DNA from: Suillus spraguei
Taxonomy: Eukaryota > Basidiomycota > Agaricomycetes > Boletales > Suillaceae
Direction: 5' to 3'
DNA length: 64,000 nt
Assembly (NCBI GenBank): GCA_016800925.1
Contig: JABCPU010000070.1
Coordinates: 124,001 to 188,000 of the forward strand
Part shown: positions 13,019-44,204 of the stretch, in pieces
Layout: each line of letters begins with the position of its first letter
Numbering within the stretch: position 1 is the stretch's first letter
Program-made: the position numbers and the translations under genes
Notes under the pieces: model-generated
Databases searched by the model: none
What the model saw: only the letters and a program-made list of their open reading frames with translations
What the model was told of the DNA's origin: nothing

Positions 13019-13019
13019 G

Positions 13020-13735
13020 GATGTCAAGGTGTGTTCCGATATAAAAAAATGCGGTCATCAGCAGGTTTTGAACCTACACAGGAAAGAGAAACAGATTTTG
13101 ATTCTGTTGTGGTAACCATCACGCTAAGACTAGTTACAATGAACTGCTAAAGAAACCATCACGGGTGAATATTAAGGTGTGTTCCGATAAAAAAAACCTT
13201 GTCGTCGGCAGGTTTCGAACCTGCACAGTCCAAGAGAAACAGATTTTGATTCTGTCGAGGCAGCCACCAAGCTAACACCAGCTACGGTGAACTTTCAAAG
13301 AAACCGTCCACGAGTGAACATCAAGTGTGTTCTGATAGAAAAAACCTCGTCATCGGCAGGTCTTGAACCCGCACAGTTCAAGATAAACAGATTTTGATTC
13401 TGCGGTGGCAACCGCCTAGCTAAGACCAGTTACGATGAACTTCTAAAGAAGCCATCCATGAGTGAATGTCAAGGTGTGTTTCAATAGAAAAAAACCTTGT
13501 CGTCGGCAGGTTTCAAACCTCCACAGTCCAAGAGAAACAGATTTTGATTCTGTTGTGGCAACCACCTGACTAAGACCAGTTGCGGTGAACTTCTGAAGAA
13601 ACCGTCCATGAATGAATGTCAAAGTGCGTTCTGATACAAAAAAACTGGAGTTCAGCAGGTTTCGAACCTGCGCAGTCCAAGGGAAACAGATTTTGATTCT
13701 GTTGAGATAACCACACTAGCCAGGTTAAAGTTTTT
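13020..13735 (-). repeat. Array 1: five tandem tRNA-like units of about 148 bp
   Basis: T-arm-like blocks start on the plus strand at 13061, 13208, 13356, 13505 and 13654, so the period is 147-149 bp. Read on the minus strand, each unit has an A-box-like TTAGC..GGTGG, a five-pair anticodon-type stem ACAGA/TCTGT around the loop ATCAAAA (CAA in anticodon position), and a variable arm of about 14 nt. A T-arm GCAGG-TTCGAAA-CCTGC follows, and then TTTTTT. The B box is near consensus (GGTTCGAAACC). The acceptor stem does not pair convincingly, so functional tRNA is unlikely. The last unit has a diverged 3' flank (GGAGTTCAGCAGG) shared with the last units of arrays 3 and 4. Confidence 0.85.
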
Positions 13736-14465
13736 AACTCCCACTTGACGACTCATCCTAAGCTGAAAGCCTATGGGGCCCCTGATTGACATTGCCCGAA
13801 AAGATGACGTGGAGAGTAAAGTTCGAGCCTGAACGTCTACGAGACAATAGAATTGCCCCGACGAGGGACAAAAACTAAGATAGTTCTAATTCACCATCAT
13901 TAGCAGCAAGTTCAATGTGATTGACATTACCACTAAGTATACACGGAGTTTCTGGAAACACAGAAGGAAATGAGCAGATACAAACGAGGACAGTGAAACA
14001 CTGTCACCACCTTGAAGGCCAGACATGGAGGATTGGAGACGGGAGTCTCATCTTCCCACAAAACGGTGGTCACGCAGCAATGCAGTTCATCCAAACATAA
14101 CATCGAGACCTCACGCGACCTCAAACTCGACATCGGTAGTGAGAGCACGGCAATAAATCACTGAGGCCATGGGGATTTCAGCGAAACGCGAACTTGGGCC
14201 CAAATGGCTGAGCAAACGAGCAATCGAAGAAGACGAGAGAAGAATACCATTCAAGGACAAGAGCAACAGACGCAGGAAAACAATCGATTTCAATGATGTC
14301 CTAATGGTAAAACACGATATAACCCACTCCCTTATGGTAGCGGGAATAAATCTACATGACACATTAGCACAGGGTGTTCGGAAACCAATGCAAGCACTTA
14401 CTTTACTAGGAAGGTTCTGAGAAGTGGAAGCCTTGGAAGTAGAGCACGGTGGTCTGGCTTTCCAT
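13736..14465 (-). repeat. Tail segment of repeat element copy 1
   Basis: Unique-looking but repeated sequence that follows every array (also about 17205-17702, 39830-40500 and 44205-44905). Shared blocks include AGAATTGCCCCGACGAGGG-like, CACTGTCACCACCTTGAAGG, and the terminal TTCTGAGAAGTGGAAGCCTT. Open frames on either strand are short and not conserved between copies, so I do not call a protein. On the minus strand its right end carries a GAG|GTAAGT-like donor, so this could be the transcribed 5' part of the element. Confidence 0.7.
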
Positions 14466-15524
14466 AGAGCAACAGGCTTCGTATGAATCTCTGCTCTCCC
14501 GCACACAACGGGGGCAACAAGGGTCAGTACAAATACGGACAGAGTTTGCAAGCCGTCGTGATAATATTGATCGTCGTAATGAGACCATACATGATTGTCA
14601 TGCTGTCTCAAAGCCATATGGGATGCGGTAGAAGGAGAAAAGACAGTGGGAATATACTTCAGGCGAGATAGACCGGTCGAAATGTCTGTTAAGAATTATA
14701 CCAACTGTCGATAGTAGGAATGCGCGCAGGACCAGATGTCAACTCCACGGTGACCCCATTATGATCGGAAACAAAACGCAGCACAATGCGGTCATGTAGA
14801 AAAGACGATAGTACGGAGAAATCCTGACTCATCGTTAACATAAATAACAGTAGGAATATCAGTGAAGGGTCCAATGATTTGATAACAACTAAAGGCACAG
14901 TCGACGATTAAGATCAACATACGCAGTGAGAAACACAACACCAACTACTGTCATAGCGGGAATGAAGCACTGCGCAGCCTGAGTGAGTCACATATCCTGG
15001 AGGGTAAGGGCTGCTCAGTGAGCTCAGGGAAGGAATCCGAAGGATAGATTCATTCGCCGCTAATGTTGTGATATTAATAGTAATGCTCGCCAGCAGCTGC
15101 GGATCTACCTCAGTGAGCACGGCGCGCAGAGTCGCCGCAGACTGGCGTAGAACTGATTTGTGATTCATGTGACAGGACATAAGCGTGAATAGGTGCATAC
15201 CAATCGGACTTCAAAATAAGTTGCGGCATATCGGCAAATCGAACTGTAACCTATCGTCCACCATAGCTCCCGAACACCTTGTGCGACTCACAACTGTTCG
15301 AAAAATTAAAAATTTACTGACCTTCAGTGATTTAATACATGTGCAGGAGCTTCGGCTGTAGGAAATTTATCTTGTGAAAACAGACGATGAAAAAACATGG
15401 TACTAATTTGTGCCTGCGAAGCATAAACCATACTAAGACGCAATAGCTTCGAACAGAGGTTTGGTTTGGACATATGTTCCACCTTGATCGCGAGTGCATG
15501 CTAAATCACTGTTAATACTCTGTT
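14466..15524. other. Spacer between array elements 1 and 2, no gene supported
   Basis: Only short frames occur. About 15205-15270 is the reverse-complement partner of 12425-12490. Nothing else was recognised. Confidence 0.45.
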
Positions 15525-15745
15525 TAGTGGTGCTCAGATCAGCACCTGATATTGTAGACGCGTTCACAGACATCAATTCATCCAATGTGCATTTGACTAA
15601 GCCTGAAGAAAGACTACATAAAACCGGCAGCCTCACGACACAATATAATTAATGTTGCGAACGCGTCTGAAGGCACGACTCGCCATGGAATAAATATTAA
15701 TGTTGCAACATCAATTTGGGGGCTAAGATGAACCTCTAAGGAAAC
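15525..15745. repeat. Head segment of repeat element copy 2
   Basis: Begins near GATCAGCACCTGATATTG, which recurs near 38580 and 42885, and continues with ACAGACATCAATTCATCCAA and GGCACGACTCGCCATGG. It leads directly into array 2. Confidence 0.75.
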
Positions 15746-15749
15746 CATC

Positions 15750-17204
15750 CATGAGTGAATGTCAAGGTATGTTCCGATAGAAGCAAAACGTCATCGGCAG
15801 GTTTCGAACCTACACAGTTTGAGAGAAACAGATTTTGATTCTGTTGTGGAAGCCATCAGGCTAAGACCAGTTACGGTGAATGTCTAAAGAAACCATCCAC
15901 AAGTGAATGTCAAGGTGTGTTCCGATAGAAAAAAAACGTTATGGTAAGCAGGTTTCGAACCTGCAAGACAAACAGATTTTGATTCTGTTGTAGCAACCAC
16001 CTGGTCAAGACCAGTTATGGTGAATTTCTAAAGAATCCATCCACGAGTGAATGTCAAGGTGTGTTCCGATAGAAAAAAACGTCGTCGTCGCGGTTCGAAC
16101 CTGCACAGTCAAAGACAAACAGATTTTGAGTCTGTTGTAGCAACCACCTGGTCAAGACCAGTTACGGTGAATTTCTAAAGAATCCATCCACGAGTGAATG
16201 TCAAGGTGTGTTCCGATAGAAAAAACGTCGTCGTCGGCGGGTTTCGAACCTGCAAGACAAACAGATTTCGATTCTGTTTGTAGCAACCGCCTGGTCAAGA
16301 CCAGCTACGCTGAATTTCTGAAGAATCTATCCACGAGTGAATGCTAAGGGGTGTTCGATAAAGAAAAAAGGTAGCGTAAGCAGGTTTTGAACCTGCAAGA
16401 CAAACAGATTTTCATTCTGCTGTAGCAACCACCTGGTCAAGACCAGTTATGGTGAATTGCTAAAGAATCCATCCACGAGTGAATATCAAGGTGTGTTCCA
16501 ATAGCAAAAAACGTCATCGTCGGCAGGTTTCGAACCTGCACAGTCCAAGACAAACAGATTTTGATTCTGTTATGGCAGCCATCAAGCTAAGATCAGTTTC
16601 AATGAACTTCTGAAGAAACCATCCATGAATGAATGTCAAAATGTGTGCCGATAGAAAAAAAGTGAAGTTCAGGAGGTTTCAAACCTACACAGTCCAAGAC
16701 ACACAGATTTTGATTCTGTTGTAGCAACCACCTGGTCAGGACCAGTGACGGTGAACTTCTAAAGATACCATCCATGAGTGAATATCGAGGTGTTTCAATA
16801 GAAAAAACCTCATCATCGGCAGGTTTCGAACTCGCTCACTCCAAGACAAACAGATTTTGATTCTGTTGTAGCAATCACCTGGTCAAGACCAGTTACAGTG
16901 AATTTCTCAAGAATCCATCCACAAGTAAATGTCAAGGTGTGTTCCGCTAGAAAAAAATGTCGTCGTCGGTAGGTTTCGAACCCACACAGTCCAAGACAAA
17001 CATATTTTGATTCTGTTGTGGCAGCCATTAGGCTAAGACCAGTTACGCCGATTTCTAAAGAAACCATGAATGAATGTCAAAATGTGTTCCGACAAAAAAA
17101 AGTGTAGTTCAGGAGGTTTCGAACCTGCTTGTTCCAAGAGAAACAGATTTGGATTCTGTTGTGGTAACCACCAGGTTAAGGCCAGTTACGGTGAACTTCC
17201 ACGA
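15750..17204 (-). repeat. Array 2: ten tandem tRNA-like units
   Basis: T-arm blocks start near 15797, 15948, 16087, 16235, 16380, 16523, 16671, 16819, 16968 and 17111. Several units have a shortened variable arm (AAGACAAACAG instead of CACAGTCCAAGAGAAACAG). The first unit has the variant ...CACAGTTTGAGAG also found in the first unit of array 3. Each unit is followed on the minus strand by T5-T7. Anticodon-loop changes occur in some units (for example TTTGAGTC near 16120 and TTTCATTC near 16408), as expected of sequences not held as real tRNA. Confidence 0.85.
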
Positions 17205-17702
17205 AACCATTATGTCAAGACAGGAGTTTCGTCTTCCCACAAAACGGTGGGTACTAAAAAGACCCCCCCAGAATAGAGTTCACGCAGCAATCCAGTTTAT
17301 CCCAAATACAACATCGAGACCACGGTCCACACGCGACCGAACTCGACATTGGTAGTGAGCACACGGCAATGAATCACTGAGGCCATGGGAATTTCAGCGA
17401 AACGTGACCTTGAGTCCAAATAGCCGAGCGAACGAGCAATCGAAGAAAACGAGAGAACAATACGATTCCAGGTCAAAAGCAACAGGCGCACTGGGAAGAC
17501 GACCGATTGGAATAAGCCCAGTGGTAAAACACGATATATCATATAACCCACTCCCTCATTGTAGCGGGAATAAATCTACATGACGCATTAGAATGGTCGC
17601 AAAGGGTGTTCGGAGGCCAATGGAAGCACTTACCTCACAGGGAGGTTCTGAGAAGTGAAAGCCTTGGAAGTTGGAAGTAGAGCACGGTGGTCTGGCTTTC
17701 CA
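17205..17702 (-). repeat. Tail segment of repeat element copy 2
   Basis: Similar to the distal part of the tail after array 1: GTCTTCCCACAAAACGGTGG, then GGCAATGAATCACTGAGGCC, and the terminal TGGTCTGGCTTTCCATA. It is shorter than copy 1 because the proximal part of the tail is missing. Confidence 0.7.
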
Positions 17703-17849
17703 TACTCCGATGAATTGATGGTTGGTTGGTTCAATTCTCAGGTGGCAGTCTATCTGTCCAGGTTAGGAATCAAAGCAACTTCGAAACGACGTTCTAATCC
17801 CATGGCTGATTCAAAGAGGGACAATTGGTCATGGCCAGAAGTCTGATAT

Positions 17850-17865
17850 CACGTGACCGACGCGT
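17850..17865. promoter_or_regulatory. CACGTG and ACGCGT elements upstream of the NEDD1-like gene
   Basis: CACGTG at 17850-17855 (within TCACGTGA) and ACGCGT at 17860-17865 lie about 170-185 bp before the start codon. ACGCGT is the MluI cell-cycle box used for G1/S transcription in yeasts. The link to this gene is an inference, but it suits a mitotic protein. Confidence 0.4.
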
Positions 17866-18033
17866 CTTGTTCGTCGCGCCCTGTGGATTCTGTATTCTGA
17901 ATCAATCATCCTCTTGTATTTATCATCCAACTTGTCATACCAGGAAAGTTCGACAACTCTGTATTCCCCTCATTCGAACACACCCAACCACTCCTCGAAA
18001 ATCAACCAGTGATAATTTTACAACGCGACTAAC

Positions 18034-20363
18034 ATGCTTGCCTTGGTCACCACGACAGCCCTCGCCTTGGCCTCTCCTGTAACCCTAAAGAATCCTCCAT
18101 CTTTACTTCCGATCAGCCAGTCTCTTTCATCTCAATATTTCGCATCAGCATGGTCCCCCGATAACTCATCTCTCTATCTTGCCTCTCCCTTCAGCATCGA
18201 TCGCTTCATAATCTCGCAAAGCCGATTAGATGAGGCCATATACGTGCAATCCAAGGAGGAAGGAGGGATAAATGCCATGGCAGTAACTCCATCAGGAAAT
18301 ATAGTACTGGGCGCCGGGAAGAAGGTGATCGTGCTGGAACACACAGCCGGATCAGCAAAAGTGCTCAAAACGCTCGAATCCCATGGAACGACGATCACCG
18401 CGCTGGCCGTCTCAAACGACAGCACACTCGTCGCTTCCGCTTCTTTAAAGGGCGTGCATATTCACGATTTACTCGTTTCTGCGAAACATACGTCTCTCCC
18501 CCTCCCTATAGGTGCTTCGCGGTCTGTGAGCACCATGACATTCCATTCGCATGTTCGAACTCGCCTGCTTCTTGGTCTTGGCCATGATATACTTGTTTAC
18601 GATGTGGATAAGCCTTACGCGTCTGTGAAACCTATTAGCATTGGACGGAAAGTGGTGGGCATTGCGTGTAGCCCGTTTAGCAAAACGCTGGTTGCTGTTG
18701 CAAGCACAGATCACGTCGGCCTTGTTGATTTGGATAAGGATAAGGGGTACGTATGCGCATATTCCATTTTAATAAGTAATAACTCTCCGAGCATAGGTTA
18801 TTCAAGACAGTCTTGTCCCCGCAGCTCATTACCTCGATCACATTTTCACCCGAGGGTGCAGCTATCTATCTCGGTGTGCGGGATGGGCTGAGGATTCTCA
18901 ATCTCAGAGAACTGGACAAGGAGATGAAGAGAGTTTATGTGGGCGAGTCTGGACAGGGTGTAGTATGTCTCACTGTTCAGGTATGTATATTTGGGACACA
19001 TCCGCTAGCATTTCTGATCTAACGAAACAAGCAGAAAAGGCTGAAAACATCTGCGTCTGCTGTGAAACCACGTATCTCCAATCCATCAGCAAGCTCCTCT
19101 CCTGCACGTGCTCGCGCGAAAGCAGCTTCAAATGCTCGCTCTCCCCTCCGACCTGTGACAGCTGCCGTACCGAGAAAGAATGGGATATCGTCATCCATTG
19201 CTAAGACCCCTACGAAGCAGGATGTTCTGGAGACCAATACGCCGACTAGGCGTGTCTCAAACCGAGGTGCTTTCTCGCCATTGAGGAATCCTATATCACC
19301 GTTGCGTGGTAGCAGAGGCACCGACAGTAGTTCTGGTGGGTTGCCTTTTATGCAGCCTCCATGTAAAGAACACTGACGCATGTCTCAAAAACTAGCGACT
19401 AGCGTGCTGCGCACCAGAGTGTCTACATCACGGGAAAATATATTCGATGATGCCAGTGACACCGCAAGGCGATCGGATACACGCACCGGATCTTCCCAAA
19501 AATCAGGGGTATCGAGTATTCACCCTGGCGATTCGATTTCCGCTAGATTGGCCTCATTGCGCACAGGTAAAACGAGAGAGACTAGAGTTGCTTCTGGATC
19601 GTCTGCTCGTTCTGAGATTACGAGAACGTCGTCGAATCCAAGTGTTGGCACGAAAACCAGGGGGTCTTCGTTAAAGCGCGCCCCGTCGACATTATCGACC
19701 TCTTCATCGAAGACGAGGGATAGTACTCGCTCAAAGACGCCCACCAATGAAGATGAGGATGCACGCACAGATTTATCGTCTCCGGATTTGCCAATAGACT
19801 CCGTAACCCCCGTGTCCGATATGAAGAGACAGTCAGCAAGAATAGCTATCGAAGCCAAGAAACTAACGGTAAGAACAAGTGCAGGGAGGACAAGTACCAA
19901 GACGGGGAGCACAGTCAGCACCGCAAGGTCCAGGGGAAGCAAGAGTAAAGGAAAAGAGAAAGACGTCGATGTGGATGCGGAAAATGCTGACACGTGCGAA
20001 GAGTTAGACGCTGTGGAAGAAGATGAAGAAGAAGCACAAATGACCCATGAGCGGGAGCTCTTGATGCAAGTTTCCCCTCGCCCCTCTGCAGCGCAGACCT
20101 ATGTTCCATCACCACTCCGGCGAACCTCAGGCACCTTCTCTATGCAATCTGGTGCAAGCGGTGCGTACGAGCTCTTCCGGGGGCTCATTGCGGACATGCA
20201 AGCCAAGAACCACGCGGACATGAAAGCGTTGCACGTTGACATGCTGCGAATGGGGCGCGGGCTTCGGCAAGAGATGGATGAGTGGGGTGGGGAGATGAAA
20301 AAGTTGAGGGAGGAGAATGAGAGGTTGCGGGAAGAAAACGATAGGCTAAGGAGAGGGTACTGA
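18034..20363 (+). CDS. NEDD1-like WD40 protein (gamma-tubulin recruitment)
   Basis: NEDD1/GCP-WD proteins attach gamma-tubulin complexes to microtubule-organising centres. The N-terminal part (18034 to about 18985) is a WD40-type propeller with degenerate repeats such as QYFASAWSPDNSSLYLAS, GINAMAVTPSGNIVLGAG and ITSITFSPEGAAIYLG. A Ser/Thr/Arg-rich, probably disordered and phosphorylated middle follows. The C-terminus has a helical segment (YELFRGLIADMQ, LHVDMLRMG) resembling the NEDD1 gamma-tubulin-binding region, and ends in a coiled coil rich in EEN/LR before TGA 20361-20363. Introns are near 18747-18797, 18980-19034 and a very short one about 19363-19395. The family call rests on propeller plus C-terminal helix, so it is good but not certain. 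Confidence 0.75.
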
Positions 20364-21481
20364 GCGTCCCTCGTGTTATTTCTTTGGAAGATGGACGGAT
20401 GTATTGGGTTGTATTGCTTCGACACGATACCCTTTTACAATATGGTATTGTAGCCAGTAGAGTGTTGTATGATCTTTTCCAGTGCCGGTTCTCTCCAATC
20501 CATCGATGTGCTGCGATCGGGTTCTGTACGTCCAGAGGAATCATGCATAGCGTGTCATACGATCCAGCGCATGATGAAGAGATTGATGTTGTATTTACAC
20601 GATCGATGAATTTCAGTGACTGTGCGATCTCATTGAGCTGCCAACTCTGTTATTTCCTGAGATACCTAACAACGAAAACCGTGAGTCACAATTGTGCTTC
20701 ACCGAGGACACCATTCACCAAGTCGAACTGCTGCGCCAATGTTTTATTCAGATTGAAGGAGATGTATAGAGGATCCTTGTCACCACCAGGCTCAAGTTGA
20801 ACCTGCGAATACGAAACGTCTTCTGCTAGAGTCTAACGTATGCAGTGAAGGGCACAGACAAACTCCGCATCCTGCACGCACACGAGATGTAGCTTTCAGT
20901 CCAGTGGTGTCAGAAGGACAGGGCAACCAATCTGCGGACCGGGGCACAACGACATGTTGGCCCTGGCGTAAGACAGTGCTTCGGCGCAACCTCTTTCCCT
21001 AGAGAGCTAAAAGCCTGCCAGATGGATTCACTTAGGGATTGCTTCGAAATTCGAATGTATATTTGGGTACTGCAGCACTTCTTGGGAAAGATTCCAAAAA
21101 GTCTTTGACAGTAATTCATCCTTCGAAAGCACCGGGTAAGAGAACTGATTTCTTCTGGTGAGTAAGCTAAGAGAGATCTGCTGTCGGACGGTAGAGATAA
21201 AAAGAGTAGTCCTTGTAGAGTCTAGGCTCTCATTCCGATCATCGGGCCCCGTGGGAATACATCAAACGGTCTGATCTGGAGGCCTGACAAAGTAGGCATG
21301 CTTGAGCCTGAGCGCTGAGCGCTGAGCGCTTGAGCATTGACACAAAGCATCTGAATCAGTGAGCCGCCAACATAGTCCTGGAGTATGAACAAAACTAATA
21401 AGGCAGCTGAAACCCCACGTGATCGCGAAACGTTGACATCGACACGCCCAAAACACGCTCATATCCAGATCAACCCCGACA
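20364..21481. other. Intergenic region, no gene supported
   Basis: This is the NEDD1-like 3' flank and FAN1 upstream region. A small direct repeat of about 7 bp (GCTGAGC) occurs three times at about 21311-21330. No other structure was seen. Confidence 0.5.
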
Positions 21482-24400
21482 ATGACCCCAAGTTCACCAA
21501 AACCGGCCTCACTCAGTACCCTCATCTTTTCCGGTGGCGAAGTCGGAAGCGATTACTCGTACGAAACCCAAATATGCCAAGATGATCGCCTAGCAGGGCC
21601 TTCCAACTTAAACCACAATCATCAGAAGACAGGAGATGTATCTGACGATAAGCCCGTCAATACATATGTCCAACTTTTTGAAGGTACGTCGTATCTCAAG
21701 ATTGTATTGTCAAGCATATTAAAGACGCGTATACTCAGACATGCTCAGGACTTTGGTAGAGACTGAGGGTCATTTATTCGACCCTTCAGAACTCGATTAC
21801 GCCCAGAGATACGCCAGACTTTCGCGTATGTTTACATTTCAAAATTATAAGCTATCTCAGTGATAAATAGCAGTGCAAAGTTTCTTCTGACGAAGCTTCT
21901 CCTGCGAAAATTCAATGCATGGCACCGTCTAGACTCGCTCAAATACGAGGCTGAAATAGGCAGCAAAGAAGGGCTTATTCAAGCTATCGACGAGATATGC
22001 TTTATACCAGGTCAAATTAAGGTGGACCATGTAGACGAAGGGGCCGTCAAGATGAGCGTAGAAGAGAGGGAAATAATAGACCTCACGAATGATGTCCACC
22101 CACCTTCCTTGCCTTCACACATTCTGCAACCTCAGGAAACACCTGCACTACAGCACCAACCTGCACGCTTCAATATCAAGACTGAGGAAGTCCCAATACC
22201 CCTAGATACAACGCTCTCTACTGCAAATGTTATTGCTGGTCCCTCTTCTATAAAACTCGAAGACCTTCCTATGGCTGACACCAAGCTTATGAACTATGCT
22301 GAAACACTCCCAGAGCCCGTAGGCATCCTAGCGGAAGACGAGTCTCAAATGGACCTTCCTGCCCTCCTTGAGTGCCTCAGAGTCGACGAACTACGTTGCA
22401 TCGCGAAGCAAATGCGCGTCAAAGCTAGTTCGAAAGTGCGTCCTCGTAGCCCTTGTCACGTCTTATTCTGATATTCCGAATCTCTGCAAATACAGCCCGA
22501 TATTGTACACGCGCTTCTAAAAGGTTCCTGCACGCAGTTAACACTAGTATCATCATTCGCCTGTGCTACGACGACGTCTAAAATTCGATCGCAGCCAAAA
22601 TTGAGTTCACATCATCAACACCCATTCTTCAACAAACTATTCTCCCTTTTGGTCGCGAGACAGCCCAGAAGCGACTGCGCATATCGTTCTCGGCACACTC
22701 GGCAAGTGTGTGCGTGTACATGAGAGCTTTCACCGGTTTGTGCGGCGGGCAAACATAATTTATTTCAGGCTGTGCGTCCCCTCTTCTCCCTCGGCATTTT
22801 TTTGTGTCTTTTCGACAATCTAACTCATAGTTTTAGGACTCAATCTTCCCAGAGTCTTCTTCTACCCGCCCTACTCTCGCGCTTTAAGAAGCGCTCCTAC
22901 GCCGACATATCCTTCACACGTACGAAGGATATCTGGCCTACACGTGATGCTCTTCTCGCTTATGAACAAGCGCTTGAGCAAGAAGAACTTGTAGATGCCG
23001 CGTTCGCTGGCAATTTTGCACCAGCGGGAGCTGAGAGGGAACTCAAAACTCCAGCGGCAGGTGAACTTCAATTCAAGATGCCAGTAATACCAAGTACTGT
23101 ACATGGAGCACTGCAGACACCGATTTCTACGAAGACTGTACAAACCCCTGTGTCAGACACCTTTGCAACACCCGCTTCAAGCGGCAAAGGCAACCTGCAA
23201 TCTAAATGTGGTGCATCCGTCAAGACTGAAAAACCAGATTCTGTCCGTGTACGTGGGGCACGACTAGTGAAGGAGATCTTCGAGGAAGTGTACCCGCACT
23301 GGCAGGCTCTGGTGAAGATGAAGAGCGAAGGTGGTCTTGAGGGGAAAGAGAGGGGGTATGGATTAGAGAGATTTGAAAGCGGTATGTATATCCGACCACC
23401 ATATGTACCCAGTTCCTTGACGTTTTTTGCAGGGCACGTCTTAACTCGCCTTGTTTGTAAAGGTGCACATGCTCTCAGTATTCTCGGAGAATACGAAGAT
23501 GAACTCAATGTCATCGAGTCTCTGCTTGCGCAGAGGCGGTGGCGCCGCGGACGACGGGGAAGGTGGCACGAACGCCGGGCGTTGATTCTAGAAGATATGT
23601 AGCCAGAGATGATGATGCGCTTTCGGCGTGTCTCGATGCTCTAGAAGATGATAATACACATATTGGTGGGTCCAGATTTGGAAGCTAGCTGTCTCGTCCT
23701 GAATGATCACTGGATAGTCTTCCGTCCCAAACTTGACCGCCGCTTGACAGCCCTGGAGAAGAAGCTCAAAGTTATGCCTGCAGATCGACATACAAGCGAA
23801 TGGAACCTCCAACCCCCTGTATTTGTCGCCTTTGAAGGGGTGCGCGTGCGCCACCGTGCAGCGAGCTTAAAACTCGACCGTTCTGGGCGAAACATCAACG
23901 ACACTCCCAAACCAAAAGTTTCTACCACTCAGGCAGGAGATATCACTAAATTTTTGTCGCCCAAAAAACCTGGCGTTATGAAAGTGGATACGACACCTGT
24001 CTCGATAAAAGCCGAGGTGAGTCCTTGTGGTGTTGACGAAAAATCAAAAACAGACCTGTTCCTAGACCAGTCTGACCAGGGAACGCAAAGAGGAGAAAGG
24101 AAAGTCCATCTGGGTTGGGCGAGATAACCTAGAAGTAATGTCGAGACACTCGCATTACAATGGTACGAGGACCAGGGGTTTAAAGGGTATGTCCATCTCT
24201 CGCCTTTCTCGTCCACCCTCATGGTCGTTCAATTCCGCAGCATACACTCAGAAACAAGAATCATTGCTACCCTCTTTGGTATCCTCTTCTGGGATATTAT
24301 CTTCCTCCCCATTCCCGGTGCCTTCGAGACGCCTTTCCAGACTGCACCGTTGGATATTGCAGAAGACTCGTTTTATCATGCTCGACGAGACCCCATCGAA

Positions 24401-25258: not shown

Positions 25259-25538
25259 AAACCCTAATTATTATGTCATTTTTATCTTGCATTTTTACTC
25301 TATCTTTATTATTCCATTTACGTCCCAGTTGTATTAACGATTCTGATATCTATTCATCAGATGCGTCGTTGTCGAGGTGCTATATTAAATAACCCGATAT
25401 CATAAATAGTGGGAGAGGAATACAGTGAGTGTAGCCATACACGTGAGGTGGGAATTGGGAGGCGATGAGTAGCACAATGCGATGAATGATTAATAAAATG
25501 TAAAAAAGTAAATCATGGCATGCAAGTCAAAAAGTACA

Positions 25539-34146: not shown

Positions 34147-35195
34147 CTTGCTCGGACTTGGTTATGGTTATAATAAAAGAGAGATAAAAGACTGTTGTGC
34201 TGAAAGACGATTCAGAATAGACCAGTAGTAATGAGACTATAAGAATTTGAAGGTTAAAGTTTACAAGTTTGTGAAGATCATGACTTCTCCAGAACATTCT
34301 GAGGCCCTGCGACACCGGCAACTTCATCGTGATATTCGCACTACTTTGCGCTCATCGTCATTTCTATGCATTCAAGGCAACTTGCAGGTCTCTCTCGGAT
34401 TATTGTATTCGAAGCCATCGTTTGCCCGGCAATTTGAATGGTCGGCTTACCTCTCACGGTTCATAGTACCAGTAAAACGGGATATCTCGTTTAACTCAGA
34501 CTCGTGGGATGTTTATGTGTAGAATTTTGCAGTGTTGGCCCGCGGGGCCATCAGCTGGCTGTCGCACGATGACAAGGATGATTCATAGAGCTGTCAACTG
34601 CTGGGCGAGATATGTACGCCGAGGTGCATGCGACCAATGAGAGCGGCGATGTTCAGGATTCGGGCCCCCGGGACTCTGGGTTACAGGTCCGGTATCGTGA
34701 CAGTGATAATGCAAGCCATATCGATGTTTTCAGCAGTGCGAGAAGGTATCCCAGGTATCACTTCATTGTCATCAAGCGAGTTGATATGACATCCCGAAGC
34801 ACAGCGCAAGTGGGTATGCCATTGCCTGGTACTGTCTGCTGTAAAATGTGCATCGTGTATGTACATGACTGCTACACATATTTGACCAGAAAGCAGTTGC
34901 GCAGCGATGCTGTATCACAGGCGAGTAAGACAGTGACTCTCCGTAATGCCAACTCATTCTCCCATTCAACAGTAACAGGCTTGGGGATGTTTTGTGAATA
35001 GCATCCACTCCAATGGCGGTCGATAATTAGCAAATCATGGACGGAGGCTGTGAGCAAGAAAGTTCGAGGAAACCGCGTGTCTACAGCAAGGCCGAGACGT
35101 GGCGTTCAGCAGCAACCTGTAAAGAGACCACCGACCACAGAGCATGCAAGTGCGTGTTTCCCGTTCGTCACTCCTACTGAGCAGGACACAGGATA
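34147..35195. other. Intergenic region, no gene supported
   Basis: Short frames only on both strands; no family motif, repeat or RNA was recognised. Confidence 0.5.
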
Positions 35196-35910
35196 GTGGC
35201 GGTGGCAACCACTGTTCACGAAGACGAAACATCTCCCCGAGTGCCCACTCAGTCCACCCGAAAGGAACCACATGCAGAACTGACTCTAAATGGTCATGAA
35301 GACTGGGTGGATAACATAGCTCTCATTCCTGACACAGTCTGGACAGTTGCAGCATCCCCCAATGGGTGTTGGTTTGTGAGTGGAGTGAAGAACGGAAGAG
35401 TCCTGGTCTGGGGAGTTACAACAAACAAGAGAGTACCGGTCTCGTTCCAGGGACACCAGGACAGTGTCTGGAGCATCGTATTCACATCAGACAACTAGGC
35501 ATTTGCAAGTGCATCATTGGACGGTGCGGTATGCGTGTGGCAGAGGGAGACGGGCGAAATAGTCCTCGGACTTACACAAGTGGGCAGTGAGGCATACTCG
35601 GTGTCGTACTGCCCGAATGGTAGCACGTTAGCAGCAGGAACTGACGAACACATCCGAGTCGCTATCTGCAATACTGCAAGCGAAGAGGAAACGTTGAAGA
35701 TATAACAGCGGGCATGGCAAGTTGCGATGATCTCCATCTCGTCAGTGTGAGTGACAAAGATAGATACTGACACAGTTTGACGCGCTTACGAACGAAGCTT
35801 TACTTTTACCTCAGTGCTTTCCAATGTCGTCAAATTCGCCACCACACCAGACGACACGGTTTCTTGACCTGACCACTTTTATACTCATTGGCAAGCGCCC
35901 AAGAAGCAGT
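35196..35910 (+). pseudogene. Decayed WD40 gene copy, related to the gene at 62203
   Basis: Blocks align with the intact WD40 gene at 62203: SPNGCWFVSGVKNGRVLVWGVTT to SPDGRWIVSGGDNGSILVWEVAT, and ETGEIVLGLTQVGSEAYSVSY. It has no start ATG. TAG at 35496-35498 sits where the intact gene has a sense codon, and a TAA at about 35703-35705 replaces a Glu codon before QRA. Part of the next repeat is deleted after 35720. Residual similarity to FFDLTTFEPIG runs to about 35910. Confidence 0.8.
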
Positions 35911-36294
35911 AACAGCTACTGGTGACCCAGGGTGACGCTTCAATATCAATATCTCAATGTTAGCTTGAAGTTGTCAGCCGGCCTTTCCGTTTCCGTTGGC
36001 AGCGAATTACCAAGCACAGTATGGCCTACGTACAACTTCCGAACAAATCAAATTAGTTCTTGTGGGATTAAAGTGCTTGCAAAGACACTTATTTTTAGAC
36101 TTACTTCCGAATAGGCTTTGTGGCGGTAGAGCATTAGCTTTTGCCGGCCGCGTCTACCATTTGATATGTAGTTGCCCAACTCTATGAGTTTCGGGCGGTT
36201 TGAAAACCTGTATACATCAATTATGAACTTCCATACACTCATGCATGACCGCGTGTGATAACAGAATTATACTGATAGGCTCGTGATTGTTCTC

Positions 36295-36303
36295 TATATA
36301 AAG
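36295..36303 (+). promoter_or_regulatory. TATA box of the DUF6533-like gene
   Basis: TATATAAAG, 49 nt upstream of the ATG at 36344. Confidence 0.5.
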
Positions 36304-36343
36304 CAGTGACATACGTCGCTTCTCAGGTTTCCCTCATTTCACT

Positions 36344-38163
36344 GATGGGCTTGGCCCTCACAAATTCACAGCCCTTACCAGTTAACAAGATTCCGACTAA
36401 AATTACTGTGTCCTGTAAGTATTGTACATTGGTGATCAGTAGCCCATCCCTCATTCTCTAAATTCGCCATTTAATTTGCACAGTTTCATGTTGGGACTAG
36501 AAGAATCTCTATATGCTCTTGACTGGAATAACAACTTAGCAGGTTTGTCAGCCTTATCGGAAATGAATCATAGTGCTGAACTTCGTCGTTTTCCAGTTGT
36601 CATCATCACCCTGATATGTTATGACTACAGTCAGTAGACTTTCACGAACCTTGCAGTGCGGCTAAGCGTAATATTATTTAGTCCTTCAGTTTGAGAAAGA
36701 GGTAATGAGAGGGTCGTTTCGTCGTCGTCATCTCAAGTACTCATGAGTCATGATCATATCGTCCCAGGTCGCGTTTGTTTGGGTTAGAGCTCCACCCCAA
36801 TGATTGAAGATCCAGAACTGACTGGTTATGCAGGAAAGACAGTGGTCAGTGATGTCATATCTATACCTTGTTGTAAGCCCCACCCTGCCAAAATAATTCA
36901 TGGTTTCTCATTCTGTTGTTATGTCAGGTTCGATATTTTGGTATTGTCCTTGCGATGTACGTCGCGGTGGTTTTATTATTCAGATGGTGCATTGTATGTT
37001 GACACTGATGTTCAGGATTTGCGCCATCTGTACGCAACGTGATACCTATTACCGACTGAGTTGTCATTAACTGACTAACCACAGGGGGAGGTCTGTTATA
37101 TATACCTGAAGCAGTGAGTGTATTCTTTCTTTCTTTAGAGTCATAGGTTGATCCAGATCCAGCCGTACGTGATAAGTTCATTTCACAACTAGGCTTGATC
37201 TGCTGCTGACCTCTTGTTTAGTTGTGGGTATATTGTACTCAAGTAAAACTAGCTTTGCTCATCATGAAATTGAAACAGGTTATGGCATACTTCTGTTCAT
37301 GCAATGGGGTTTTCTGTATATTTTTGCTTGACGGAAGGTAAGTCGCCCATGCATTCTCGTACCTTCGTGACCGATTTTATTCGCAGTCGTTCTCATATGG
37401 CGTCTTTACGTCCTATACAACCAATCCAAGCTCATACTTTATCTTCTTCTGGGGTTGCTCCTACCTATCGTCGCACTCTATATAACGATGAATATATTTT
37501 CATGGAGTCGACCCTCGGCGATGTCAGGTGAATTTCTATTTTGATTGAATTCTTTGCAAGCTGATACCTGGTTGCATAGTGTATGAAATAATGATAACTC
37601 CAAATATCAAGTACTGCACAGCTTCCTTCCACGTGGGGCCTATGCCTGCAGTATATGCTTCTATCCCCGTCATATGCTACGAAATTTTCTTGGTTGTTCT
37701 TGCCATTTCCGTGCTCTGGAAGCACCTGAAAGAAAGAAAGGAAATTCAAATGAAGCCCAATGTCTACGTAGTAATGATCGTCCGATATCATGTCATATAC
37801 TTTGTCCTGTAAGTTCCCCCTTCGTTTGTCGTGTTCTCTGAAAGCATTCATAGAATCGCGCTAGGAATGTTGCAACTGAAATAATTGTGGCGATATTATG
37901 GGTCCACCTTCCGGTACAATCTTCTGTGATTCTAGAGAGATTTATTCTAATGCAGGCATGCACAGACGGTGGCGCTGAATCCCATACTATTGTTCAAGAA
38001 TACTGTGCGATCGATTATCGTGCCACGTTTTATCATCAGCATCTGGGACACGCATGCCAATGACAACTGTGTACGTGTCAGTACTACGTTTGAGGATTGT
38101 GTCTGTTGGACTTCTCCGCCAGAATTGGAGCAGCCCGAGAACGTTGACTCCGTTCCAAATTGA
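36344..38163 (+). CDS. DUF6533-like seven-helix membrane protein
   Basis: Mushroom-specific family of about seven-helix membrane proteins with unknown function. The start at 36344 lies just after a TATA box and joins by an intron (donor at AA|GTATTG) to a helix region with CYDYILQFEKEV, the family's conserved N-terminal motif. Further exons give FVWERQWSVMS, VVRYFGIVLAMYVAVVLLF, VYFCLTEVVLIWRLYVLYNQ, GLLLPIVALYI, CYEIFLVVLAISVLWKHLKERK and PNVYVVMIVRYHVIYFV. The end is FIISIWDTHAND and an acidic tail, with the stop at 38161-38163. Exon joins between about 37000 and 37290 were not resolved. No clear lesion elsewhere. Confidence 0.7.
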
Positions 38164-38389
38164 GAAAGGAGCTAGCATACTTGCCCCTGACTAACGTAGA
38201 CTCTGTGGAATTCGTGAATGTAGATTTCTCGTACTTCGATACATCTGCGCATTGACTACCACGACATGCAGGTTCGACTGGGAATCCCAGGCAAGATAGG
38301 ACTATCTTGAGCTCATCCATTTAGTTCCTATCACTTGAATATCGTCATTATAGGCTATGGAGATCAGCGAGAAAGGGCTTGATATGCTG

Positions 38390-38705
38390 GTTCATGACGA
38401 CTCGAAAGTTGAAAGAAACCCCTTCACCTGAATATAGCGTCATTGGAGGCACCAGGACTAAGATTTTTTTTCTAAGCCTGATTGACCCATCTGCCTATAT
38501 TCTTCTGGGCGCAAAGCTCAATAGACTATGAGGTATGAAAGGTCAGCCAACCAGACGCTCTGTGCAGTGGTCCACAGATCAGCGCCTGATATTGCATACA
38601 CGTCTACAGACATCAATTCTGAAGGCATGACTCGCCAAAGAGTCGCCATGGAGTAAATATTAATGTCACAACATCAATTTGGGGACTAAGATGAACCTTT
38701 AAGGA
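38390..38705. repeat. Extended head of repeat element copy 3
   Basis: About 38390-38620 matches 42575-42915 in the same orientation (CCCCTTCACCTGAATATAGC, GCCTGATTGACCCATCTGCC, CTCTGTGCAGTGGTCCACA), with an insertion in the second copy. The part from about 38565 is the head shared by all four elements. Confidence 0.8.
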
Positions 38706-39829
38706 AACCATCCATGAATGAATGTCAAGGTATGTTCCGATAGAAGCAAAACGTCATCGGCAGGTTTCGAAATTACACAGTTTGAGAGAAACAGATTCTG
38801 ATTCTATTGTGGAAGCCATCAGGCTAAGACCAGTTACGGTGAATGTCTAAAGAAACATCCACAAGTGAATGTCAAGGTGTGTTCCGGTAGAAAAAAACAT
38901 TATCATAAGTAGGTTTCGAACCTGCAAGACAAACAGATTTTGATTCTGTTGTAGCAACCACCTGAGTTATGATGAATTGCTAAAGAATCTATCCACGAGT
39001 GAATGTCAAGGTGTGTTCCGATAGAAAAAAACGGCATCGTATGCAGGTTTCGAACCTTCACAAACAAATTTTGATTGTGTTGTAGCAACCGCCTGGTCAA
39101 GACCAGTTACGGTGAATTTCTAAAGAATCTATCCACGAGTGAATGCTAAGGGGTGTTCCGATAGAAAAAACCGGCATCGTATGCAGGTTTCGAACCTTCA
39201 CAAACAAATTTTGATTCTGTTGTAGTAATCACCTGGCCAAGACCAGTTACGGTGAATTTCTAAAGAATCCATCGACAAGTGAATGTCAAGGTGTGTTCCG
39301 ATAGAAAAAACGTCGTCGTCGGCAGGTTTCGAACCTGCGCAGTCCAAGACAAACAGATTTTGATTCTGTTGTAGCAACCATTTGGTCAAGACCAGTCACG
39401 ATAGACTTCTAAAGATATCATCCATGAGTGGATATCAAGGTGTGTTTCAATAGAAAAAACCTCGTCATCAGCAGGTTTCGAACTTGCTCAGTCCAAGAGA
39501 AACAGATTTGGATTCTGTTGTACCTTGTCAAGGCCATTCAAGCTGAGCTTCTAAAGGAACCATCCATGAGTGAATATCAAGGTGTGTTCCGATATAAAAA
39601 AACGTCGTGGTTGGCAGGTTTCAGACCTGTACAGTCCAAGAACAACAGATTTTGATTCTGTTGTGGCAACCACCTGGTTAAGAGCTGTTACGGTGAGCTT
39701 CTAAAGAACCATCCGTCAAAGTGTGTTTCGACAGAAAAAAACTGCAGTTCAGCAGGTTTCGAGTCTGCGTAGAAACAGATTTTGATTCCGTGGTGGTAAC
39801 CACACTGGCCAGGCCACTCAACTCTTCCA
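38706..39829 (-). repeat. Array 3: eight tandem tRNA-like units
   Basis: T-arm blocks near 38760, 38910, 39042, 39183, 39322, 39471, 39614 and 39752. Two neighbouring units (39042 and 39183) share a deleted variable arm (CCTTCACAAACAAATTTTG), showing recent unit duplication inside the array. The first unit matches the first unit of array 2, and the last carries the CTGCAGTTCAGCAGG flank of other terminal units. Minus-strand T runs follow each unit. Confidence 0.85.
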
Positions 39830-40500
39830 CCTGACGATATTTCCCAAGTTGAAAACGTATGGGGTCTCTGATTGACACGGCTCGAAAATGGACCATGGAC
39901 AATAAAGTTCTAGTCTGAACGTCTACAAGACAATAAAACAGCCCCGATGAGGGACGAAAACTGAGACAATTCTAATTCATCATCAACAGGTTCAATATGA
40001 TTGACATTACCACAAGTATACATGAAATTTCTAGAAACACAGAAACAAATCAGCAGATATTAAAAAACGAGGACAATGAGACACTGTCACCATCCTGAAG
40101 GCCAGATATAGAGGATTGGAGACGGGAGTCTCGTCTTCTCACAAAACGGTAGCCACGCAGCGATCCAATTCATAGGGAGCGCACGGCAATGGATCAGTGA
40201 GGTCATGGGAATTTCAGTGAAACGTGAACTTGGGCCTAAATGGCCAAGTGAACAAGCAATCAAAGAAGAGACGAGAGAGGAATATAATTCAAGGTCAAAA
40301 GCAACAGACGCAAGACGACCAATTTAGGTGAGGTCTCAGTGTGGTAACACCCACTTCCTTATGGTGACATCTACATGACACATTAGAAATTGTAGCACAG
40401 GGTGTTTGGAGGCCAATGGAAGCACTTACCTCACTAGGAAGGTTCTGAGAAGTGGAAGCCTTGGAAATAGAGAAATAGAGCACGACTTTCCATAATGGTA
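39830..40500 (-). repeat. Tail segment of repeat element copy 3
   Basis: Homologous to the tails of arrays 1 and 4 over most of its length (CAATAAAACAGCCCCGA, TTCAATATGATTGACATTACC, GGAGACGGGAGTCTCGTCTT) and ends GAGGTTCTGAGAAGTGGAAG-like, then directly meets the 3' flank of Cys-rich gene copy A. Confidence 0.75.
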
Positions 40501-40570
40501 CTAGCGAAATATAGAAACATTAGACAAATGATAGTACAAAAAAAAGCTCTGGACCAGCGATTAAAAGTAA

Positions 40571-41942
40571 TCATTGGAAGCCAATATCGTATTCTTCGTG
40601 CCACCAGAGGTTGCAAAGGCTTTCGCATTTGCAGCATGATTTCTCATCAATATTAATATCAATATTAGCGCATTCCTCGCATAGGAAATTTCCACAGCCC
40701 TGGCACCTGAAAAAGGTCTGCTTTACTTCTATTCTTTCTTCATCCTCTTTACAATCTTCACAAAGCCCCTCACGTGAGCACAGCCCGCAAACGCCGATAT
40801 ATGAGCACGCTCGACAGAAACGCCGATAGCACCCAGGGCACGTAAGGATGCCACTAGCAGCACGTTCTGCGGCCTGCGACTCGCAGCCACAGCAAGCCCA
40901 GTACCGACCACATGGACAAGTGAAGTCCTGTGTGATACAATCAGGGCAAGTTGTGGTACCGACACGAGACCAACAATCATCATTACTACAGTGGCGCCCA
41001 TGTCCGCTCGCTTTACTCTTCTCTATACAAGTAGTAGACTGGCAGGATAAGATACGCGGTAGGTGTAATCGGGTTACATCTGTGTCTGGCGAGGAAGGTT
41101 CGGTGCCGCGAGTGTCGCCATTAGAAACTGGGCGCCCAACGCACCACTGAGATTCATCTGAACAGATCCAGCGTGCACATGTGGGACACTTGCCCAGACG
41201 AGGCAGATAGTTTGGCCGCTTCATACATAAAGTACAGAATCTCACGCTGCGATGATTGGAACACTGTACGAGGGGGATAATAGAGGAGGCTTGACAATGC
41301 AAATTGGAGCAGGTAATAATTTTGCATATGTTGCACGATGTCCGCTTTGCTGAGCAGATAGGACAATGTAGGCTGTAATATGAGGGGTTCTTGACGCCAT
41401 CTACATTGATCATACCTTTGTCAACAAGACAGCGATAAAATGCCTGTACTCGGAAAAGGGCAAAATCTGAAATATGCTCAGAACTAGTTAATCACTCGCC
41501 TTGACTCTATTTCTTTTCTGTTCTCGTGCTATCTCAAGGCGATGGGCTGCCTCGCGTTTCTGCATATCGAGCATGTCACTAATATCATGTGGCCAAGAAG
41601 AAAGGGGTCAAATAAAGCATAGTAATTAAAACTCCGATGCTCCTCGACGAGACCATTTCCACTCAGATCAGTACATCAGCAAGTCCTTATGGGCCTAACA
41701 CATACATGGCCGATTGGAAAAACATCATTTTTGATAATGCGTCCTCCGAGTATTCTATGCTCCCTTTGATTATTCAGGTTATGCAATGCATCTACCGCAC
41801 CGCTGATCCTCAGAATTCAATTTCATCGACGGTGGACGGATGGCACTCATCAAGTCTTTCCTATAAGGTACAAGATTCTGGATATGTGCAATCGTCATCC
41901 TCAATCTCCGAGAAGGCGTCAGGAACATCCGTTTCATGATTA
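40571..41942 (-). pseudogene. Cys-rich zinc-binding-type gene, copy A (5' part inverted, middle deleted)
   Basis: The family is not recognised. The minus-strand frame 40571-41413 has many Cx2C pairs (CPICSAKRTSCNICK, CPTCARWIC, CPCGRYWACCGC, CPGCYRRFCRAC, CQGCGNFLCEEC), close to intact copy B. Its C-terminus departs from copy B after CCKCES and ends early. The part corresponding to the N-terminal exon of copy B (MADWKNIIFDNASSE...) lies on the opposite, plus strand at about 41620-41942, and the segment between them in copy B is missing. Minus-strand homology stops at about 41563. The gene is therefore broken by inversion plus deletion. Confidence 0.8.
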
Positions 41943-42574
41943 TTTTAGTCGCACAATAGACCTTATATGCCCGCACTTGAGTCAAGCCGTGAAGTCACTG
42001 TGCACCATGGGAGTCTCACTTCCAAGGAAGAAGCATCTGAGTCCAGACCTGCGATCATAGCACTCACGATGAACTCATGAACCAGAACCGTTCTCTTACA
42101 CATCCCGTAAGATCTTGAACACGAAGTTGGTGTCCTTGCTAAATCTACTTTGTCTCAACCAAATCTTTGTCTAGCGGCAGATACAGTTCACTTTTCCGCA
42201 GCCCTTCCTCGAGTACTATCCTGCAAAGGATAGAAATTGAAAACAAATAAAAAAATTGAACGAACATATGATCTGGTTCGCTGATCATCAACTACAATGA
42301 CAAGAAACGTTCGCAATCACTCACCTCAGCGAACCGTCATTGATGTTGACAACGAACGTCATATTCGTACTTACGACATACAACATCGGGACTATCACTT
42401 TTGTCTCCTTCATATCGACAGAATTTGCAAATGCTTCCGTGGTATTTGCAGCAGAATGTTTCGTCAATATCAGCGCATTCCTTACATAGGAAATATCCAC
42501 AGGCCTGGCACCTGGAAACAGTCTGCTCTACTTCTATTCTTTCTTCATCCTCCTTACAGTCCTCACAAAGCTCA
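41943..42574. repeat. Dispersed repeat R plus truncated 3' end of a fourth Cys-rich gene copy
   Basis: About 41943-42250 matches 48715-49010 and 51025-51300 (TATATGCCCGCACTTGAGTC, GAAGAAGCATCTGAGT, ACACCTCGTAAGAAGATCTTG-like). About 42265-42574 matches the 3' end of copy C (about 49230-49530) on the same strand, including CTGGCACCTGGAAACAGTC. It breaks off abruptly where the extended head of element 4 begins. Confidence 0.75.
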
Positions 42575-43095
42575 TGACGACTTGAAAGTTGAAAGAGACC
42601 CCTTCACCTGAATATAGCTGAGACCTGAGTCATTGGAGGCACCAGGACTAATATCTTCTAAGCCTGATTGACCCATCTGCCTATATTCTTCTGGGCGCAA
42701 ATCATGTAAACGTCGTGAAGTACTACCTTGAACAGGACATGATTGGAAACAGACACAAGAGTATGTAAATTGAACGAACATTTGATCTAATTCACTGAGC
42801 AGAATCAACGACCCTTGGCTCAATAGACTATGAGGTATGAAAGGCCAGACCACCAGACACTCTGTGCAGTGGTCCACATATCAGCGCCTGATATTGCATA
42901 CATGTCTACAGACGTCAATTCATCCAATATGTAATTGACTAAGCCCGAAGAGGAACTACACAAAACCTGCGGCAGCCTCACGACACGATGTAATTAGTGT
43001 TTCAAACGTGTGTCCGAAGGCACGACTCGCCATGAAGTAATATTAATGTTGCGACAACAATTTGTACGGGGGATAGGACCAGTTAATATAAATCT
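42575..43095. repeat. Extended head of repeat element copy 4
   Basis: Matches 38390-38705, with an internal extra segment around 42700-42830 (AAACAGACACAAGAGTATG). The junction at 42575 interrupts a Cys-rich gene fragment, so this is an insertion or recombination edge. Confidence 0.75.
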
Positions 43096-44204
43096 CAATG
43101 AGTGAATGTCAACGTGTGATCCGATAGAAAAAAACATCGTCATCAGCAGGTTTCGAACCTGCACAGTCCAAGAGAAACAGATTTTGATTCTGTTTTAGCA
43201 ACCACCTGGTTGAGACCTGTTATGGTGAACTTCTAAAGAAACCATTCATGAGTGAATATCAAGGTGTGTTCTGATAGAAAAAACCTCGTCATCGGCAGGT
43301 TTTGAACCTGCACAGTCCAAGAGAAGCAGATTTTGATTCTGTTGTAGCAACCAGACCAGTCACGATGGACTTCTAAAGATACTATCCATGAGTGAATATC
43401 AAGGTGTGTTTCAATAGAAAAAACCTCGTCATCGGCAGGGATTTTAATTCTGTTGTAGCAACCACCTTATTAAGACCAGTTACAGCGAACTTCTAAAGGA
43501 ACCATACGTGAGTGAATATCAAAGTGTTTCGATAGAAAAAAGCTCCTAAGTCGTCAGCAGGTTTCGAACCTGTACAGTCCAAGATTTTGATTCTGTTGCA
43601 GTAACCTGGTTATGTTACAGCGAACTTCTAAAGAAACCATCAATGAATGAATATCAAGTGGTGTTCCGATAGAAAAAAAATGTCATCGGTTGGTTTCGAA
43701 CATGCACAGTCCAAGAGAAACAGATTTTGATTCTGTTGTAGCAACTACCTGGTTAAGACCTGTTGGGTGAACTTCTAAGGAAACCCTCCATGAGCGAATA
43801 TCGAGGTATGCTGCGACAGAAAAAACCTCGTTATCAGCAAGTTTCGAACTTGCAAAGTCCAAGAGAAACAGATTTTGATTCTGTTGTATCAACCACCTGA
43901 CTAAGACCATTTACGCTGGATTTCTAAAGGAGCCGTCCATAAGTGAATATCAAGGTGTGTTCCGATAAAAAAACCTCGTCATCGGCAGGTTTCAAACCTG
44001 CACAGTCCAAGAGAAACAGATTTTGATTCTGTTGTGCCGACCACCTGGTTAAGAGCTGTTACGGTGAACTTCAAAGAACCATCCATGAATGAATGTCAAA
44101 GTGTGTTCCAATAGAAAAAAACTGCAGTTCAGCAGGTTTCGAACCTGCATAGTCCAAGAGAAACAGATTTTGATTCCGTTGTGGTAACCGCACTGGCCAG
44201 GCTA
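43096..44204 (-). repeat. Array 4: eight tandem tRNA-like units, one truncated
   Basis: T-arm blocks near 43146, 43295, 43433 (T-arm partly deleted), 43557, 43689, 43836, 43984 and 44132. The unit at 43984 fits the array-wide consensus well. The last unit has the conserved terminal flank CTGCAGTTCAGCAGG and CACTGGCCAGGC. T runs on the minus strand follow the units. Confidence 0.85.

Follow-up and report, generated by a model that had tools for sequence, protein, structure and literature searches.

Tandem arrays of tRNA-Ser-derived repeats inside a non-autonomous DNA transposon family of the bolete Suillus spraguei

Results

The 64-kb stretch of Suillus spraguei DNA analysed here in full (called the window; contig JABCPU010000070.1, positions 124,001 to 188,000 of the forward strand, from the 86.2-Mb assembly GCA_016800925.1 of 1256 contigs) contains four tandem arrays of a tRNA-like repeat. 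They comprise 31 units of ~148 bp each (5, 10, 8 and 8), all on the minus strand, and array 1 lies inside a non-autonomous DNA transposon with terminal inverted repeats (TIRs) that we call E1. The units were detected by an anchor search and an nhmmer profile. Tandem Repeats Finder called a period of ~140-149 bp at 13021-13704, 15735-17199, 38789-39714 and 43440-44182, and the spacing between units is mostly 140-150 bp. The number, size and orientation of the units given in a preliminary description of this DNA, made from the sequence alone, were thus found again. The features of the arrays and of their carriers, including target-site duplications (TSDs), are collected in Table 1.

Table 1. Arrays and carrier elements in the window (window coordinates)
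Feature	Positions	Strand	Evidence or remark
E1, non-autonomous TIR DNA transposon with array 1, 2.84 kb	12430..15265	-	dispersed copies and TIRs
E1 left TSD, GCTTCC	12424..12429	+	5/6 bases identical to right copy
E1 left TIR, 62 bp	12431..12492	+	92% to 15203-15264
Array 1, 5 tRNA-Ser-derived units of ~148 bp	13018..13725	-	repeat finder, profile, unit alignment, motif counts
E1 right TIR, 62 bp	15203..15264	-	pairs with 12431-12492
E1 right TSD, GCTCCC	15266..15271	+	5/6 bases identical to left copy
E2, related remnant around array 2	15517..17704	-	flanks shared with E1, E3 and E4; limits are those of shared sequence, termini not found
Array 2, 10 units	15729..17200	-	repeat finder, profile, unit alignment, motif counts
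E3, related remnant around array 3	38392..40583	-	shared with E4; limits are those of shared sequence, termini not found
Array 3, 8 units	38692..39822	-	repeat finder, profile, unit alignment, motif counts
E4, related remnant around array 4	42572..45004	-	shared with E3; flank family dispersed in genome
Array 4, 8 units	43088..44211	-	repeat finder, profile, unit alignment, motif counts

The core of each unit resembles a class-II tRNA, with an arm ACAGA-ATCAAAA-TCTGT, a T arm GCAGG-TTCGAAA-CCTGC and a run of T. All these parts had been noted in the preliminary description and are present, the loop being exactly ATCAAAA in 21 of the 31 units (four loops were unparsed). The T termini that it reported unit by unit are equally real: at least four T follow 30/31 units, and at least five follow 28/31. 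Of the RNA polymerase III (Pol III) promoter elements that it named, the B box, GGTTCRANNCC, is exact in 19/31 units and found with one mismatch in 26/31. For the A box, a strict search (at most one mismatch) finds it in 4/31 units, and a much looser pattern in 25/31. An exact B box with a run of T4+ in the next 35 nt occurs 19 times on the two strands of the 64 kb, always on the minus strand of the arrays, and nowhere outside them on either strand.

The units do not qualify as nuclear tRNA genes. ARAGORN predicted no tRNA gene in the window, and an Rfam search of the entire window returned nothing at E<=1. When array 2 was searched alone, the best unit scored 17.5 bits against RF00005 (E 2.2), below the gathering score of 29; the top Rfam row there, at E 0.16 and 21.7 bits (vs 65.7), was a plus-strand match to Plastid-ycf2. 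In the unit consensus 4/7 acceptor-stem positions can pair, G-U allowed, vs 7/7 in tRNA-Ser. The stem, which had been described as unpaired, is therefore degraded but not entirely lost. Given this degraded acceptor and D arm, the absence of an ARAGORN call and the sub-gathering Rfam score, the units are tRNA-derived sequences, as the preliminary description had it when it classed them as class-II elements rather than genes, and homology to tRNA-Ser agrees.

To assign the parent tRNA, the unit consensus was compared with 50 tRNA loci of the same genome (31 distinct spliced sequences), with 300 dinucleotide shuffles of the core as control. The best match is the genome's own tRNA-Ser(AGA) at locus L088, with a score of 78, and the next four are all serine tRNAs (66, 50, 48 and 48). 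The shuffled cores have a mean best score over the 31 distinct tRNAs of 25.9 (standard deviation 2.9), and 0/300 reach 78. After removal of the T arm and 3' end the core still scores 52, vs 24.5 (standard deviation 2.9) for shuffled sequences, none of the 300 being as good; its reverse complement scores 27, which is at chance level (106/300 shuffles). A consensus of 77 older units from more diverged loci is identical to tRNA-Ser(AGA) at 57/75 ungapped positions from T8 on, and has TAGCCAGGTGG at the place of TAGCCAAGTGG in the tRNA. Homology over the core thus identifies the parent of the unit as a tRNA-Ser. The preliminary description had named tRNA-Leu(CAA). We rejected a leucine parent in favour of serine, because the better of the two tRNA-Leu genes scores 33, both of these being Leu(AAG) in a set that holds no Leu(CAA) gene.

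The leucine-like anticodon of most units probably has a simple origin. CGA is a serine anticodon, which a CpG transition would be expected to turn into CAA. Some units retain the loop ATCGAAA, with anticodon CGA, so the CAA anticodon is probably a product of CpG decay. ATCGAAA is the consensus loop of one unit position of the E1 family (29 copies) and occurs in 1/31 window units. Among the older units, 53 of 77 loops could be parsed, of which 30 are ATCAAAA and 7 ATCGAAA, and 2 more are ATCGAAG.

E1 is a non-autonomous TIR DNA transposon with the array at a fixed internal place, which leaves ~0.6 kb on its left and ~1.5 kb on its right up to the ends of E1. Dispersed copies can be aligned with it over up to ~2.8 kb at 91-93% identity, some of them interrupted or truncated, and the loci L062 and L063 have the same ends. 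A 20-base word of the TIR has 126 genome matches at <=2 mismatches, vs 3 for the reversed control word. Exact 6-bp TSDs flank 8/14 copies (6/10 end pairs and 2/4 loci, E1 not being among the 14), and their sequences vary from site to site.

Two observations concern the surroundings of such copies. The segment 12341-12411, just outside the left end of E1, is an inverted copy (89%) of 14396-14466 within E1; a second related fragment thus adjoins E1. The loci C113:165981-167779 and C617:28037-30802 have identical flanks and different inner lengths, and are perhaps allelic contigs of a dikaryon.

A search of the genome for further arrays found dispersed loci with 4-11 units. With a single array-1 unit as query, 39 other places match at 97-99% among the matches listed (40 of 494 candidates scored), and the neighbouring units at those places are ~77-92% identical to the query, again among the matches listed. 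The 30 best matches to this unit, hereafter the young loci, were fetched for alignment and contain 158 units in total; because they were selected for their similarity to a single unit, the young family is over-represented among them. Exactly 5 units are found at 26 of them, 4 at two, 9 at one and 11 at one. Over the 30 loci, units at the same array position have mean identities of 95, 97, 93, 93 and 93% for the five positions, and units at different positions 73-81%. A 30-base unit pattern had no exact match in viral contigs.

The arrays of the window are also related to each other. E1-E4 share the flank to the right of the arrays, up to ~14444-14466 in E1, 17704 in E2, 40472-40583 in E3 and 44881-45004 in E4. 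The nearest relative of a window unit is in another array for 16/31 units and in its own array for 15/31; common descent and local turnover are thus both present. The arrays share ancestry and were inherited within dispersed repeats rather than arising as separately expanded clusters. Independent expansion at four sites, as proposed in the preliminary description, is contradicted by the position-wise identity, the shared flanks and the cross-array nearest relatives.

E3 and E4 are closer to each other: 38640-40583 aligns with 43024-45004 at 81%, and 40582-41563 with 45202-46174 at 90%. E4 and its neighbouring gene are probably a segmental duplicate of E3 and its gene, one segment having been duplicated in place. 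The E4 flank is a member of a family with copies dispersed in the genome; among the 40 of 374 candidates that were scored, most are 70-80% identical. At 18 older loci fetched through this flank, 3-8 units are present in 15, 1 unit in one and none in two.

The 17-base T arm has 293 exact matches genome-wide. Exact copies of it are carried by 7/31 window units and 46/158 units of the young loci, and at these fractions the genome would hold ~1000-1300 units, as a rough estimate.

The gene beside arrays 3 and 4 codes for a cysteine-rich protein without Pfam match and is present in three tandem copies on the minus strand (40571-41491, 45119-46102 and 49431-50222). Of 15 homologues of the protein, 10 are named, and these 10 are all from Suillus; a genome search gave 11 matches. 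We considered the gene as a possible part of the element and rejected this, since 11 genome matches stand against 293 exact T arms.

We next consider how the parts of the unit vary. Divergence was expressed as mean pairwise difference and calculated for 27 inner units of the window, leaving aside the four at the edges. It is lowest in the T run (0.012), followed by the anticodon arm (0.060), the B box (0.121) and the 5' strand of the acceptor (0.138). Intermediate values are found for the variable region (0.151), the T arm (0.161) and the linker (0.204), and the highest for the D/A-box region (0.271) and the 3' strand of the acceptor (0.350). Relative to the linker, variability is reduced in the T run and in the B box (p=0.00025 and 0.045); this and the other p-values for conservation assume independent columns and unrelated units and are indicative only. 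Because of a substitution bias towards C>T and G>A, conservation was retested separately for A/T and for G/C columns. The T arm does not differ significantly from the linker overall or in any base class. Conservation is absent from the D/A-box region, where variability exceeds that of the linker at p<0.05 in 3/6 comparisons. At one of the five unit positions of the young family, the B box is broken in the consensus (1/30 exact). The box is exact in 105/158 young and 42/77 older units.

Covariation in the two stems, counted over 30/31 units (a truncated unit near 43437 was omitted), shows no excess, with 92.2% paired vs 92.1% in shuffles, and RNAalifold returned no consensus structure for the units.

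Elsewhere in the window, a 597-aa open frame (stop to stop) at 57773-59566 on the plus strand has no Pfam match and contains tandem repeats of 27, 39 and 66 bp at 58698-58986. A NACHT/NPHP3_N frame (56620-57372, minus) lies near an F-box and WD40 frame (54340-55395, minus), and further WD40 frames are at 62182-63384 and 18016-18891.

Discussion

The arrangement of these arrays suggests the following history. A serine tRNA gene with some flanking DNA would have been captured inside a non-autonomous TIR DNA transposon of the bolete, and the captured segment then tandemly duplicated there. The array would since have been carried as a fixed internal part of the transposon and of its older relatives, spreading by insertion with 6-bp TSDs and by segmental duplication, and the number of units would have changed slowly, presumably through unequal exchange. 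Meanwhile the D arm and the acceptor stem of the cloverleaf would have decayed, and CpG decay would have turned most CGA anticodons into CAA. We consider this account probable as a whole. Within it, we infer the step of capture followed by tandem duplication from the present structure, and the same holds for our view of the present arrays as mainly passengers that keep remnants of Pol III motifs.

Several results weigh against this history. TIRs were not found for E2-E4, where only short matches were detected, the best of 18 bp at E 0.035 in E2. Exact TSDs are absent from 6/14 copies examined: L065/66 and L071/72 share flanks mutually, the right flank of L077/78 is that of L073/74, and L083/84, L061 and L064 have no duplication at all. 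In a count restricted to contigs C1-C399, only 32/101 unit matches lie within 3.5 kb of a listed TIR match with 0-1 mismatch, although in the other direction, in favour of the history, 25/39 of these TIR matches have a unit at this distance or less; the TIR family thus accounts for the young copies, and many of the other arrays belong to relatives that are older or degraded. Neither an autonomous partner nor a transposase was found, six TIR-bearing stretches of 3.0-3.4 kb having no open reading frame >156 aa, and the longest frame of E1 (194 aa) has no Pfam match at E<=0.1. No intact tRNA-Ser was found within the element, and the capture step was not observed. Moreover, the anticodon arm surpasses the linker in conservation when composition is controlled, both in the window (p=0.0004 and 0.016) and in the 77 older units (p=0.044 and 0.023 for A/T and G/C columns), and the T run is nearly invariant. 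The array is therefore not established as a pure passenger.

One TIR-bearing stretch, L110:1538-1695, has a single recognisable unit. It may be a deletion product or a form that preceded the duplication.

The conserved parts of the unit invite functional readings. The units might be working Pol III/TFIIIC platforms, in which the B box would recruit TFIIIC and some transcription would stop at the T run. The exact B boxes (19/31) and T5+ runs (28/31) are consistent with this, as is the lower variability of the T run and B box (0.012 and 0.121 vs 0.204 for the linker). By analogy with the tRNA clusters and B-box arrays of fission yeast, such an array could keep the chromatin of the transposon open or act as a mobile boundary; in the Schizosaccharomyces pombe element IR-L, an excerpt of PMC4502379 reports that five clustered B boxes are required for full boundary activity. 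The other half of the promoter tells against this proposal: a strict A box is present in only 4/31 units, and the A-box/D region is unconserved and if anything more variable than the linker. In addition, one of the five E1-family unit positions lacks the B box in its consensus (1/30 exact), and the conservation of the T arm is not significant overall or within base classes. We regard the proposal as unlikely. That the transposon carries a portable TFIIIC/Pol III array, serving open chromatin or as a mobile boundary and kept by selection on the transposon, appears from these sequences to be improbable. The pattern of B and A boxes is unlike that of a strongly selected Pol III promoter array, which is why we prefer to see the array as a passenger with remnants of Pol III motifs, and the many intact B boxes may leave room for TFIIIC binding. 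The conserved near-palindromic block CAGATTTTGATTCTG, which recurs from unit to unit, could alternatively be a DNA site for a transposase or a host factor. Subterminal repeats are bound in some DNA transposons. In conservation the anticodon arm ranks second, behind the T run, also with composition controlled, while other parts of the cloverleaf decay, and the absence of covariation beyond shuffles in 30/31 units is explained by a DNA site no less well than by an RNA stem. The array is, however, internal to E1 rather than subterminal, and we give this possibility little credence.

Two further explanations concern the origin of the arrays rather than their role. A tRNA-derived family of short interspersed elements (SINEs) might have turned tandem, as in the SINE-derived satellites of squamates; the units do combine a tRNA-derived part with a length of ~148 bp, and according to an excerpt of PMC10702118 a minor gecko satellite variant of 151 nt matches the tRNA part of a SINE. 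The unit alignments contain no SINE body, tail or end derived from a long interspersed element (LINE), although no dedicated SINE search was made. Of the dispersed entities, the 2.8-kb TIR element is the best studied, and all 30 loci fetched by unit, chosen by best match, have 4-11 units. We consider a SINE origin very improbable. The reading of the preliminary description, a Pol III cassette derived from tRNA-Leu(CAA) and expanded independently at four sites, draws on a tRNA-like core and T runs that are real, and on the 15/31 units whose nearest relative is in their own array, which indicates that some local duplication occurred. It is contradicted by the tRNA-Ser match, by the position-wise identity at dispersed loci, by the shared flanks and by the 16/31 cross-array relatives, and we find it barely tenable. 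Capture of a tRNA-Ser by a TIR transposon, with later passive carriage and decay, remains the explanation that we prefer.

If this history is correct, carriage by a DNA transposon would be a route for the spread of tRNA-derived tandem repeats, instead of SINE retroposition. Should TFIIIC still bind to the B boxes, its clustered sites would be scattered by the hundreds through a fungal genome and would offer a ready test of their effect on transposon silencing. If the B boxes are inactive, the arrays would be a clear case of a tRNA fossil that serves as filler of a transposon, and a warning that anticodons should not be read from decayed copies.

Comparison with known systems

The preliminary description knew of no family like this one. 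The exact family was indeed not found, but tandem tRNA-related repeats as such are described in amphibians and squamates, as an excerpt of PMC10702118 reports. Those of amphibians include PolIII/TAN of the newt Cynops (~360 nt, transcribed in vitro), OAX of Xenopus (longer), Rana/polIII (~250 nt) and Hy/polIII (~200 nt), although the same excerpt doubts the tRNA origin of Hy/polIII, which has no box B. Like the Suillus arrays, they are tandem units with a tRNA-related part. Here, in contrast, the host is a fungus, the parent is a tRNA-Ser, and 148-bp units form short arrays fixed inside a DNA transposon. The SINE-derived satellites of squamates (gecko averages 143 and 151 nt in the same source) are tandem repeats of similar unit length. 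Their carrier differs, being a TIR DNA transposon in Suillus, where no SINE was found in the unit alignments, no dedicated search having been made.

Among class II elements, inner tandem repeats are known from the central repeats of DINE/Helitron elements, the miniature inverted-repeat transposable element (MITE) miDNA4 of Xenopus, Pearl/CvA and Tetris, which are listed in part of PMC9659126. They resemble the E1 family in having tandem repeats within a dispersed non-autonomous class II element. In the passages of its table considered here, a tRNA-related region is given only for the class I, SINE-like Hy/Pol III and Xenopus Satellite 1, and not for class II. The Dada transposons, as presented in an excerpt of PMC3706591, have TSDs of 6-7 bp and insert in genes of small RNAs (tRNA and snRNA), Dada-U6 and Dada-U1 being without TIRs. 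The E1 family, with its 6-bp TSD, is similar in TSD length and in its link to tRNA genes. It differs in carrying tRNA-derived sequence inside, in its 62-bp TIRs and in TSD sequences that vary between sites.

The IR boundary element of the mating-type locus of S. pombe, in the excerpt of PMC4502379 cited above, likewise has several B boxes close together, five being needed for full boundary activity. Its boundary function was tested, whereas the Suillus arrays are transposon-borne and at most candidate boundaries. Among the titles and opening lines of abstracts listed in literature searches, with Repbase and Dfam outside this scope, there was no tRNA-Ser-derived tandem array within a TIR transposon and no such Suillus repeat. 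Tandem tRNA repeats and transposons with inner tandem repeats are thus both known, and it is their combination, in a mushroom, that looks new.

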